Shown: positions 28,343 through 31,142 of the stretch, in pieces
Position numbering within the stretch: position 1 is the first letter of the stretch
How the letters are laid out: each line of letters starts with the position of its first letter
Source of the DNA: Streptomyces drozdowiczii
GTDB taxonomy: Bacteria; Actinomycetota; Actinomycetes; Streptomycetales; Streptomycetaceae
Length of the DNA: 64,000 nucleotides
Reading direction: 5' to 3'
Assembly (NCBI RefSeq): GCF_026167665.1
Contig: NZ_CP098740.1
Coordinates: 1,426,001 to 1,490,000, forward strand
Program-made: the position numbers and the translations under genes
The notes under the pieces: model-generated
Database searches by the model: none
Told to the model about the DNA's origin: nothing
Seen by the model: the letters and a program-made list of their open reading frames with translations, nothing else

Positions 28343-29527
28343 TCAGCCGAGCAGTTCCTCCACCAGGTCGGCGGCGCGCGGGGTGCCGCCCTCCGCCCGG
28401 GCGTCCTCCCGCAGCCGCGCCGAACGCCGGGCGACCCCGGGGTCGTCGACCAGCGCGGTGAGCGCTTCGCGCAGGGCCTCGGGGGTGGCGTCGTCCGTGT
28501 CGATGCGGCGGGCGACGCCCAGCTCGACGAGCTTGTCGGCGTTCATGAACTGGTCGACGCCCTGCGGCACGGCGATCATGGGCACTCCGCTGTACAGCCC
28601 CTCGGAGCTGCCGCCCATCCCGGCGTGCGTGATGAAGGCGTCCGCCTGCTGGAGGATGGCCAGTTGGGGCACCCACCGGTGCACCTCGACATTGCCCGGT
28701 ACGGTGCCCAGCTCCGCCAGGTCCGTCTGCTTGCCGACCTGGAGCACGACGTGCCAGCCGGGCAGGTCGCCGTAGGCCGCCAGGCAATTGCGGTAGAACT
28801 CGGGGCGGTTGGTGTACGCGGAGCCCAGTGAGATCAGGAGCACCTTCTCCGCCCCGGCGGGCCGGGTCCAGCTCTGCTCCTCGCCGCGTCCGGCGAAGCA
28901 CGGCCCGACGAAGGTGACGGTGTCCATGTCCACGTCGTCCGCGTGCGGCTGCATCGCCCGGGGGATCAGGGCGAGGGTGTGGTCGGGGCGGCCGGTGAAG
29001 GCGTCCATGTCCAGCGTGGTGGCGCCGTTCCCGGCCAGCCACTCGGTGAACCGCGCGCGGTACGCGTCGGCCCCGGGCAGCGTCCACAACTGGGCGGCCA
29101 CGTCCTTCTCGTAACTCCGCCAGCCGACGAAGGTCGGGTAGAGCTGCATCAGGCGGCGGTTCTGGGACTCGGCGAGCACCCGGGCCGGGTACGCGCCGAT
29201 GTCGTACAGATACAGGTCGGCCGGGTCCTCGTCGTAGACGGCGCGCAGCTGCGGCAGGGCCTGGACGGCGTCGTCCAGGAAGAGGCCCATGGCGGCGATC
29301 GGGTCGTCGGGCCAGCTGCTGTCACCGACCGGGAGCACGGAGTCGTACGGCACGAAGGTGGCGCCGGTGGCCTCGATGCGCTCGGCCATCACGGGGTCGT
29401 TGGCGTAGGTGACGCGGTGGCCGCGGGCCACCAGTTCGCGGATGACCTCGATGCTCGGCAGGACGTGGCTCACGGCGGGGATGCCGATCATGGCGATGTG
29501 TGCGCGGCGAGGTGTCACAGATGTCAT
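28343..29527 (-). CDS. Macrolide-family (OleD/Mgt-like) glycosyltransferase
   Basis: GT1-family UDP-glycosyltransferase of 394 residues, close in layout to OleD/OleI and Mgt. These transfer glucose to macrolides and other acceptors and so inactivate them. The N-terminal acceptor domain has HIAMIGIPAVSHVLPSIEV, keeping the catalytic-type His in the SHVLPS segment. The C-terminal nucleotide-sugar motif is HRWVPQLAILQQADAFITHAG with GGSSEGLYSGVPMIAVPQ following. The start is ATG 29527 (MTSVTPRRAHIAM). A possible leader peptide and hairpins lie upstream, suggesting inducible expression. No antibiotic cluster is nearby, so a resistance or detoxification role is likely. Confidence 0.9.
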   Translation of the reverse strand: MTSVTPRRAHIAMIGIPAVSHVLPSIEVIRELVARGHRVTYANDPVMAERIEATGATFVPYDSVLPVGDSSWPDDPIAAMGLFLDDAVQALPQLRAVYDEDPADLYLYDIGAYPARVLAESQNRRLMQLYPTFVGWRSYEKDVAAQLWTLPGADAYRARFTEWLAGNGATTLDMDAFTGRPDHTLALIPRAMQPHADDVDMDTVTFVGPCFAGRGEEQSWTRPAGAEKVLLISLGSAYTNRPEFYRNCLAAYGDLPGWHVVLQVGKQTDLAELGTVPGNVEVHRWVPQLAILQQADAFITHAGMGGSSEGLYSGVPMIAVPQGVDQFMNADKLVELGVARRIDTDDATPEALREALTALVDDPGVARRSARLREDARAEGGTPRAADLVEELLG

Positions 29528-29632
29528 GGGGGAATCACTCGTTTCAGTTCTACGGCGGAAGCGGACACGGCAGACCGGCGCGTCGCCACCCCGGCGAGGG
29601 CCGGTCGGTGGGCGCGTGGACACGGTGTGCCG

Positions 29633-29663
29633 GACGGGGTCGGGGGCGAGCCCCGGCCCCGTC
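29633..29663. promoter_or_regulatory. Hairpin overlapping the end of the possible leader peptide
   Basis: GACGGGGTCGGGG (29633-29645) pairs with CCCCGGCCCCGTC (29651-29663) with one mismatch and a five-base loop. On the minus-strand transcript it begins inside the TGA of the 8-residue leader frame, so a ribosome at that stop would open its base. This is the geometry of attenuation, but no U-tract follows. Confidence 0.45.
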
Positions 29664-29688
29664 AGCCGTAGAGCTGGTGGAGGTTCAT
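29662..29688 (-). CDS. Possible leader peptide MNLHQLYG upstream of the glycosyltransferase
   Basis: A complete 8-codon frame (ATG 29688, TGA ending 29662) reads MNLHQLYG. It lies 134 bases before the glycosyltransferase start on the same strand. A TAGGGT hexamer (29700-29695) ends six bases before the ATG, which would place transcription start at or near the A of ATG, a leaderless arrangement common in Streptomyces. A hairpin overlaps the stop. Short leader frames before resistance genes often sense stalled ribosomes. This is inference from position and structure. A chance ORF of this size cannot be excluded. Confidence 0.4.
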   Translation of the reverse strand: MNLHQLYG

Positions 29689-29694
29689 GCGCCG

Positions 29695-29731
29695 ACCCTA
29701 ACCGCGGACCGGTCCGCGCGCACGGGGTTTT
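29695..29731 (-). promoter_or_regulatory. Candidate promoter for the leader/glycosyltransferase transcript
   Basis: On the minus strand: AAAA (29731-29728), four bases, GTGCGC as a weak -35 (29723-29718), a 17-base spacer, and TAGGGT as -10 (29700-29695). An A/T patch just upstream of a poor -35 recalls WblC/WhiB7-dependent promoters of antibiotic-resistance genes. The same bases also form the lipase terminator hairpin (29711-29746), and a 16-bp palindrome (29703-29718) fills the spacer, so the assignment is tentative. Confidence 0.35.
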
Positions 29732-29746
29732 CCGTGGGCGCGGACC
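29711..29746. terminator. Hairpin after the secreted lipase gene
   Basis: Two 15-base arms (29711-29725 and 29732-29746) pair with a single mismatch and a six-base loop GGTTTT. It starts 22 bases downstream of the lipase stop on the minus strand and likely terminates that transcript. Confidence 0.65.
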
Positions 29747-29768
29747 GGAGCGGGCGAGGGCGGTGCGG

Positions 29769-31142
29769 TCAGGGCTGGATCGGCATCGACCAGCAGTTGG
29801 AGGTGGTGCGCTTGCCCGCCAGGCGGTCGGTCAGCCAGGAGATGGCGTCGCCCTGGTCGGTGAGGAGCGGGACCATGTGGTTGGTGAGGATCTTGTCGCC
29901 GAGGTTGGGCAGGATGACGGCGTCGTACGTGACGTCGCCGCCCTTGCGGCACCAGTCGACGGCGAGCTGCCGCGCCTGGGCGTGCGGCACGATGTCGTCC
30001 TGGGTGCCGGTCGCCACCCGGACCGGGCCGGACGGCTTGAGGGTGCCGATGCGCTGCTTGTCGAGCGCGGCCCGCGCCTTGGGCTCGGCAGCGATGATCT
30101 CGCCGAGGGACTTGCCGGTCGTCGTCCACTTGGAGCTCTTCGCGAAGCCGTAGCCGAGGATCGCGTCGCCGACGCACATGGTCGAGGCGTTCTTCAGCGC
30201 GGCCCGCCCGGCGTCGTTGATATTGGCCTCCACGACGGCCCGCAGATCGGCGTCGGCCTGCGCGAAACCGTTGATCGACCAGGCGAGGGCCCCGGCCAGG
30301 GCGCTGCCGTCGATGCCCTTCATGGTCGCGGTCAGGTCGGCGGGCGGCGCCCCCGCATAAGTCCCGGCGAGCTGGATCTCGGGGGCGTACGAGGGCTGGA
30401 GTTCGGCGGCCGAGGCGCTGGCCCCGCCGCCCTGGCTGTAGCCGTACAGGCCCGTCCGGGACGCGGCCGTCAGCGAGGTGGCGGGCAGCTGGTGCGCGGC
30501 GCGGACCGCGTCGAGCAGCGCGTGGCCCTCGTCCACCCGGTTGACGTAGGTGTGGAGGCGGTCGGTCGTGCCGAGGCCCACGTAGTCGGTGACGACGACG
30601 GCGACACCGGCCGCCAGCAGCCGGTAGACGGACAGGGTCTCGTAGCCGATCGACACGGACTCGGGGGTGACGGCCAGCGGGTGCTGGAGGGCCAGCGAGG
30701 GCGCGCACTGGTCGCCCTGGCCCATGGTGCCGGAGGCCAGTGCGACCAGCGGGCGGGCGCCGCCGCCCTTCCAGGCGGCCGAGGGCTCGATGTAGGCGCC
30801 GGTCACCGCGGCCGGCTGCCCGTTGGAGTCGGTCGTGCGGTACATGAGGCGGGTGGCGGTGCCCGGCATCGGGCGGCCGTCCAGGCCCGGCAGGCTCAGG
30901 GCGAGCGGCAGGGGCTCGGTGCGGATCAGCGCCCCGTTGGCGGCGGGCAGTTGGGCGGGCGGGTCGTAGAACGCGGGGATGGTCACGCCCCGGGACACGA
31001 CGGGCTCGGTGCCGTCGGCGGCGGACGCGGGCGCGGCGTACGCGGCCACGCAGGCCGCCGCGGTCACGGCGACGGCCGCGGCGCGGAAGGGACGGACGCG
31101 GCGTGGGGGAAGGGTGGAACGCGAACGGTCCTTGCGGCTCAA
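29769..31142 (-). CDS. Secreted lipase (secretory lipase, LIP family)
   Basis: A 457-residue exported alpha/beta hydrolase of the LIP/secretory lipase family. The signal peptide has a basic N-region (KDRSRSTLPPRRVRPFR), a hydrophobic core and an ASA-type cleavage site near residue 42. The catalytic triad candidates are Ser in GYSQGGG (about 236), Asp in GTQDDIVPHA (about 378) and His in LTNHMVPLL (about 425). Cysteines near 155, 303, 396 and 450 could form disulfides. The start is TTG 31142 with GAGGAG six bases upstream. Upstream palindromes (31199-31239) may be regulatory. Confidence 0.88.
   Translation of the reverse strand: MSRKDRSRSTLPPRRVRPFRAAAVAVTAAACVAAYAAPASAADGTEPVVSRGVTIPAFYDPPAQLPAANGALIRTEPLPLALSLPGLDGRPMPGTATRLMYRTTDSNGQPAAVTGAYIEPSAAWKGGGARPLVALASGTMGQGDQCAPSLALQHPLAVTPESVSIGYETLSVYRLLAAGVAVVVTDYVGLGTTDRLHTYVNRVDEGHALLDAVRAAHQLPATSLTAASRTGLYGYSQGGGASASAAELQPSYAPEIQLAGTYAGAPPADLTATMKGIDGSALAGALAWSINGFAQADADLRAVVEANINDAGRAALKNASTMCVGDAILGYGFAKSSKWTTTGKSLGEIIAAEPKARAALDKQRIGTLKPSGPVRVATGTQDDIVPHAQARQLAVDWCRKGGDVTYDAVILPNLGDKILTNHMVPLLTDQGDAISWLTDRLAGKRTTSNCWSMPIQP

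Follow-up and report, generated by a model that had tools for sequence, protein, structure and literature searches.

The window analysed here is a stretch of 64,000 nucleotides from Streptomyces drozdowiczii (contig NZ_CP098740.1, positions 1,426,001 to 1,490,000). On its minus strand lies mgt, a glycosyltransferase gene preceded by a promoter-like region and a very short upstream open reading frame (uORF), with coordinates as collected in Table 1. The mgt protein matches the family profile TIGR01426 with 383 bits against a cut-off of 260, and stays below the cut-off of the narrower model NF033129 (526, cut-off 700). Its PDB matches include 2iyf and 2iya, the best solved matches, which are annotated as oleandomycin glycosyltransferases. 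From the profile match and these structures, we infer by homology that the mgt product acts on macrolides. The title of a 1991 paper by Jenkins and Cundliffe on mgt of S. lividans reportedly calls the resistance inducible.

A gap of 241 nucleotides separates the mgt ATG from the upstream ORF on the same strand, a putative lipase gene. The preliminary description of this region had spoken of a 240-base leader; that length belongs to the intergenic gap, and the presumed transcript leader would measure 161 nucleotides if transcription starts at the leader ATG. The complete frame MNLHQLYG reported in the same description is present in the gap.

Table 1. Features of the mgt locus in the window.
Feature	Positions	Strand	Basis
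mgt, macrolide-family glycosyltransferase, 394 aa	28343..29527	(-)	TIGR01426 profile
GAAAAC, perfect fit to WblC box GAAAWY, 3 bp upstream of -35	29727..29732	(-)	
GTGCGC, -35-like, matches TKGMNN at 3 of 4 specified bases	29718..29723	(-)	
TAGGGT, -10 element (TANNNT), 17-bp spacer, 6 nt before leader ATG	29695..29700	(-)	
uORF MNLHQLYG-stop, ATGAACCTCCACCAGCTCTACGGCTGA, putative leaderless; also 5' strand of long-range helix P1	29662..29688	(-)	
GC-rich hairpin beginning in uORF stop codon; differs among lineages	29633..29663	(-)	predicted fold
Anti-uORF element GCCGTAGAACTG, pairs with uORF CAGCTCTACGGC, one mismatch	29545..29556	(-)	predicted
GAGTGATTC, Shine-Dalgarno-like segment of mgt; paired with uORF GAACCTC	29532..29540	(-)	predicted fold

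The candidate promoter and WblC

The consensus for WblC-dependent promoters given in PMC7157823 is GAAAWY, 3 bp, TKGMNN, 16-19 bp and TANNNT, with most start sites located 7-8 bp after the -10 element. The minus strand of the window reads GAAAAC, 3 bp, GTGCGC, 17 bp, TAGGGT, 6 nt and ATG, followed directly by the MNLHQLYG-stop frame, so that the predicted promoter (GAAAAC-3-GTGCGC-17-TAGGGT) fits this consensus, with three of the four specified bases matched in the -35 element, and the base 7 bp after the -10 element is the A of the leader ATG. The preliminary description had placed an A-rich patch four bases before a weak -35; the patch is there, as GAAAAC, at a spacing of 3 bp. Its placement of the TAGGGT hexamer, ending six bases before the leader ATG, is exact, and its suggestion of a WblC-type promoter agrees with the published consensus and with the presence, in the same genome, of a WhiB protein with an AT-hook-like tail. 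Twelve WhiB-family matches occur in the genome, and one (L232) carries such a tail among the loci inspected, which comprised all but the last few. An AT-hook-like tail is expected of WblC, and by that criterion we take L232 to be WblC-like.

The WblC box recurs well beyond the window. Among 67 distinct leaders with a canonical ORF, identified as described below, 43 match the box at five or more of six positions and 20 at all six, compared with means of 1.1 and 0.05 over 500 runs of a control with shuffled upstream sequence. Its spacing is not sharp: a gap of 4 performs as well as a gap of 3 (45 leaders at five or more positions, 18 at all six), gaps of 1, 2, 5 and 6 give 22-29 leaders at 5/6, and gaps of 0 and 7 give 11 and 10. 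A generic sigma-70 scan reported no promoter at the TAGGGT of the window, since that scan looks for another consensus.

An inverted repeat, GGTCCGCGC ... GCGCGGACC at 29711-29746, encloses the WblC-like box in the window and its near relatives. It is probably what the preliminary description took for the terminator of the lipase gene, and more distant leaders show no such repeat.

Distribution and reading frame of the leader peptide

By its predicted translation, the leader frame is a member of a conserved family of short peptides whose C-terminal end is mostly Q-[I/L]-Y-[G/E]-stop. The eight-codon form, searched as ATG-N9-CAGNTSTACGGSTGA, occurs in 30 of 392 Streptomyces genomes, and its reversed control in none of the 392; judged by position, 29 of the 30 matches precede, by about 100-260 nt, an mgt gene that shares at least 67% identity with that of the window. 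The 15-mer CAGMTCTACGGCTGA is found at 60 places in 58 of the 392 genomes, its reversed control being present in at least three (G283, G363 and G384), and five of the 60 places have no adjoining mgt gene of at least 67% identity. All six matches away from mgt, five to CAGMTCTACGGCTGA and one to ATG-N9-CAGNTSTACGGSTGA, are the ends of longer ORFs with no promoter-linked start; among exact-pattern matches, therefore, a promoter-linked leader occurs only at mgt. The preliminary description had proposed to look for conservation of MNLHQLYG. The frame is indeed conserved, in its C-terminal end rather than as MNLHQLYG as such.

We also scanned loci without regard to peptide sequence, accepting any ORF of 2-19 codons that begins with ATG or GTG 6-7 nt after a TANNNT hexamer and lies no more than 300 nt from mgt. 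Three locus sets, overlapping in part, were used: a named-relatives set of 39 loci, 35 of them read and four (L036-L039) left out as partial matches; a genus set made up of the best 76 places, with at least 67% identity, and 14 more distant ones; and a class-wide set contributing 19 close loci that were new and a further 7 distant ones, its remaining genomes either belonging to the genus sample or having no locus. The closest named relatives are Streptomyces, and several loci of the genus set match named Streptomyces loci exactly near mgt, as in the pairs L018/L115 and L019/L143. A leader ORF was found at 59 of the best 76 Streptomyces matches, at 16 of the 19 close loci of the class-wide sample and at 13 of the 35 readable named-relatives loci, with L138 and the masked locus L145 yielding no ORF and counted as misses. 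It was found at none of 21 more distant mgt paralogues and, within the 300 nt scanned, at none of 15 mgt copies in operons with vat-like or ABC-F genes. At no scanned locus did the search return an ORF outside the Q-[I/L]-Y-[G/E]-type family, as sorted by a family pattern that was written after the variants had been seen. The 63 distinct peptides are 7-10 codons long and end in QIYG (40), QLYG (12) or QIYE (3), with one each of QMYG, QFYG, QLYE, EIYG, PIYG, LIYG, LFYQ and REIY.

Beyond the genus, a class-wide search gave an mgt match at E <= 1e-130 in 32 of 394 genomes, 17 of them outside Streptomyces. Fourteen of these 17, in two further families, have the leader by blind scan, and three (L194, L196 and L202) have no leaderless ORF by the same scan. 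The leader is likewise present in Streptomonospora alba (L022) and Nocardiopsis sp. TSRI0078 (L023). Runs of masked N in or near three mgt leaders (L001, L081 and L145) hide part of the region; L001 carries the frame too, pushed beyond the 300-nt limit of the scan by its masked stretch.

Searching instead from the 3' end of the frame (CAG.T[CG]TACG..T-stop) retrieved 80 distinct leaders. A TANNNT-linked start, 6-7 nt away, is present in 79 of the 80, the exception being L001, cut by the 300-nt limit, so the leaderless geometry pointed out in the preliminary description recurs across the family. Each of the 79 starts shares its reading frame with the QxY end, and the distance from start to CAG is only ever 9, 12, 15 or 18 nt. 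Starts are ATG (75) or GTG (4), and stops are TGA (73) or TAG (6). Four loci from another family (L203, L204, L206 and L208) keep Q-[I/M]-Y-[G/E] with either TGA or TAG as the stop, and no GCCGTAGA-like element is visible in the last 65 nt before their mgt genes. Retention of the peptide end where this element is not visible points to selection acting on both peptide and RNA.

Predicted pairing between the leader frame and the mgt ribosome-binding region

In predicted folds, the frame is itself complementary to the ribosome-binding region of mgt. Of the 67 distinct leaders with a canonical ORF, 64 were folded; L001 was dropped for its masked bases, and L055 and L057 because no mgt start was assigned. 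Consensus folds of 35 long and 16 short leaders, chosen by length with 13 left out, pair the uORF end CAG.UCU.CGGC with the bases immediately 5' of the mgt Shine-Dalgarno region. When leaders are folded singly, the mean pairing probability exceeds 0.5 in 64 of 64, a level reached by 9 of 64 when the ribosome-binding region is shuffled. In the window, uORF GAACCUC is predicted to lie on mgt GAGUGAUUC, with an energy z-score of -3.0 for the leader fold and one of 200 shuffles as low.

The duplex between uORF and target averages -22.2 kcal/mol at the leader's own locus and -20.6 kcal/mol when targets are swapped between loci, with none of 5000 permutations as low, a comparison whose p value, like all the permutation p values here, is optimistic, as permutations ignore the relatedness of loci; shuffled targets and mgt codons 2-16, used as controls, give -12.5 and -12.7 kcal/mol. 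The first codons alone show the same behaviour against the Shine-Dalgarno region (own -8.2, swapped -7.1; 0/5000 permutations), as does, more faintly, the inner helix just after the stop (own -11.7 vs swapped -11.2, p 0.008). In some lineages (L110, L136, L022 and L023), the extension covers the Shine-Dalgarno sequence directly, and differing Shine-Dalgarno sequences are matched by differing first codons. In 28 of 64 leaders, the codon preceding CAG has T as its last base, compared with 212 of 1216 among mgt codons 2-20, and a T at this position lengthens the pairing to UCAG/CUGA.

An anti-uORF element was recognised at 43 of 56 loci with the uORF and at one of 15 operon loci without it (Fisher 1e-6, uncorrected for relatedness), leaving 13 uORF loci without the simple pattern. 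A covariation test on 52 of the 64 leaders gave, over all positions, a paired fraction of 0.704 for own pairs and 0.690 for permuted ones (p 0.007). Most leaders have a mismatch at position -2, which is paired in 0.25 of own combinations vs 0.15 of permuted ones (p 0.003). The ungapped 5' extension shows no advantage of own over permuted combinations in these 52 leaders (p 0.24). Compensatory changes in the helix core, although expected, were mostly not found in the 52 leaders, since the core is almost invariant.

That near-invariance, seen in the nucleotides CAG[AC]TCTACGGC, together with predicted pairing in all 64 leaders, could be taken to mean that base pairing is what preserves the segment and that the peptide is incidental. 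We regard this as highly improbable: conservation of RNA alone does not account for 79 of 79 starts in frame, for length changes by whole codons, for the exchange of TGA and TAG, or for QIYE, QMYG and QIYG ends in leaders with no visible anti element.

A different structure had been put forward as the switch in the preliminary description, namely a 13-bp hairpin starting inside the uORF stop codon. Such a hairpin is present in the predicted fold of the window and does begin at the G of the stop codon, with 12 pairs and one mismatch rather than 13 bp. As a conserved switch it is not favoured, being variable between leaders and lineages, and pairing of the frame with the mgt ribosome-binding region, that is, control of translation initiation, is predicted to be the more likely switch. 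Hairpins in this position nevertheless bear on a second possibility, in which the uORF chooses between terminator and antiterminator by ribosome-mediated transcription attenuation, as for wblC and are5sc. This has precedent in Streptomyces, according to passages in PMC12421871 and PMC11550727, and GC-rich hairpins do follow the stop, with the inner helix predicted at a probability above 0.5 in 40 of 64 leaders. A generic scan, however, finds no terminator-like site in the leader of the window, TTTT occurs between -60 and -25 in only 3 of 64 leaders, and the helix can form only once the mgt ribosome-binding site, where its conserved 3' strand is located, has been transcribed. We consider transcription attenuation unlikely here: with the mgt ribosome-binding region itself serving as 3' strand, the arrangement suits regulation of translation initiation better than it suits termination. 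As for a known RNA family, Rfam returned two chance-level hits in 29300-29900, both below the gathering score.

Proposed attenuation and related systems

The reading we favour, and hold to be probably correct, is that the mgt leader acts as a translational attenuator, built on a leaderless uORF and transcribed from a WblC-type promoter, in which a ribosome stalled by a macrolide frees the mgt Shine-Dalgarno region. Judging from the promoter match, translation stress would lead WblC and the housekeeping sigma factor to initiate a transcript whose first base is the A of the leader ATG or the base preceding it. A ribosome would initiate on the 5'-terminal AUG and make a peptide of 7-10 residues, ending mostly in Q-[I/L]-Y-[G/E]. 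If no drug is present, the ribosome would leave, and uORF CAG.UCUACGGC would pair with GCCGUAGA.CUG of the ribosome-binding region, the first codons extending the pairing onto the Shine-Dalgarno segment, so that translation of mgt would presumably be kept low. When a macrolide occupies the exit tunnel, the ribosome would stall near Q-I-Y-G, covering the 5' strand of the helix and freeing the ribosome-binding site. The enzyme, if homology is a guide, would then glycosylate the macrolide and the switch would reset. Drug-dependent stalling, drug specificity, the leaderless start and the dependence of the leader on WblC are thus putative parts of the scheme.

In a model in which the uORF is masked as if by a stalled ribosome, mean predicted openness of the Shine-Dalgarno sequence over 64 leaders rises only from 0.37 to about 0.45. 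With the P site on Y, this openness increases by more than 0.1 in 27 of 64 leaders and decreases by more than 0.1 in 6 of 64, whereas a control block produces 3 rises. Openness of the segment from -36 to -17 rises by more than 0.2 in 28 of 64 leaders on blocking the uORF and falls in none, and the control block gives 1 of 64. The window's own leader shows small rises in this model, from 0.50 to 0.55 in the Shine-Dalgarno window and from 0.44 to 0.49 at -36 to -17.

A simpler arrangement would have the leaderless frame translated constitutively as a passive brake that lowers mgt translation and has no specific drug sensing, with induction coming only from the promoter. A WblC-type promoter alone would indeed give induction, yet such a brake needs neither a conserved Q-[I/L]-Y-[G/E] end, which is kept even where no RNA pairing element is visible, nor complementarity to the target site, and we think a passive brake quite improbable.

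On a broader claim that builds on the drug-responsive attenuator, our judgement is evenly balanced: that these leaders may form a new family of leaderless drug-sensing peptides spread over several actinobacterial families, in which one stretch of 24-30 nt serves as both sensor and switch, the stall falls at or next to termination, the codons held by the ribosome are the anti-Shine-Dalgarno strand, and the WblC promoter makes the whole a two-input gate responding to stress AND drug. If true, initiation at a 5'-terminal AUG would be usable for drug sensing across several actinobacterial families, a new arrest-peptide motif would be at hand, and it would be explained how the response of a general stress regulator, WblC, can be narrowed at one gene to the appropriate drug.

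Well-studied drug-sensing leader peptides are mostly encoded by leader ORFs with their own Shine-Dalgarno sequences. In cat/cmlA attenuation, the ribosome-binding site is concealed by a stem made of leader codons; the uORFs there carry Shine-Dalgarno sequences of their own and respond to chloramphenicol. The mgt leader resembles these in that the leader codons themselves would form the hiding stem, and differs in its unrelated peptide and in the Shine-Dalgarno sequences that the cat/cmlA uORFs possess. In the ermC scheme, as outlined in a passage of PMC10219788, a macrolide stall on the leader opens a downstream Shine-Dalgarno sequence. Like ermC with its ErmCL peptide, mgt is a putative macrolide-resistance gene with a short leader peptide, a presumed macrolide stall and a presumed opening of the Shine-Dalgarno sequence. 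Unlike that of ermC, its uORF is apparently leaderless, encodes a peptide of another family and is itself the predicted pairing partner of the ribosome-binding site; the product of mgt is a glycosyltransferase. The leader looks built like the erm and cat attenuators.

A further comparison is with wblC and the ABC-F genes are5sc and tiaA of Streptomyces, for which passages in PMC12421871 and PMC11550727 describe uORF attenuation through terminators and antiterminators. Parts of PMC12421871 also report that a transcriptional reporter of tiaA is constitutive and that the are5sc and tiaA uORFs have ribosome-binding sites. The mgt system shares with these genes a very short uORF before an actinobacterial antibiotic-response gene; those are described as terminator/antiterminator switches, and the uORFs of are5sc and tiaA differ from that of mgt in having ribosome-binding sites. 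From published WblC promoters that of mgt would differ in placing the start site at or next to the uORF ATG. The main text of PMC7157823 contains no instance of glycosyl, macrolide or leaderless. No report of this mgt leader was found in the open-access literature, and since the search covered open-access papers only, with subscription papers outside it, novelty is provisional. The program uORF4u includes a search for Shine-Dalgarno sequences upstream of prokaryotic uORFs, as a passage of PMC10219788 states, which suggests that leaderless leaders may be under-annotated.

Copies of mgt without the leader occur in other settings. By short DNA signatures, the genus sample holds 12 mgt genes after what we take, by recognition, to be a vat-like acetyltransferase gene and three after a presumed ABC-F gene; the order ABC-F - vat - mgt is seen in Nocardia colli (L014). 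An inverted repeat of type GCAACAGTTGTCGC lies near the promoters of six of nine operon heads (L014, L016, L018, L019, L096 and L099), and no repeat of this type is present at the other three (L013, L083 and L087). It is as if, in operon copies without the leader, one control had replaced the other. A search for the uORF further upstream, over 1.5-3 kb at 17 loci comprising operon copies and distant relatives, found only a variant, in L081.

More distant paralogues show sequence elements of their own. Seven (L150-L153 and L156-L158) have a conserved GTAGACCTCTA..CCAAGG just upstream of mgt with no uORF detected, and the occurrence of GTAGACCTCTA in these seven means that part of the element may have another role. 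A further group of paralogues, L211-L217, 54-59% identical over the N-terminal part, has no leader peptide, and a palindrome resembling ACGAGACGTCTCGTCTCGT precedes the mgt start, which suggests repressor control.
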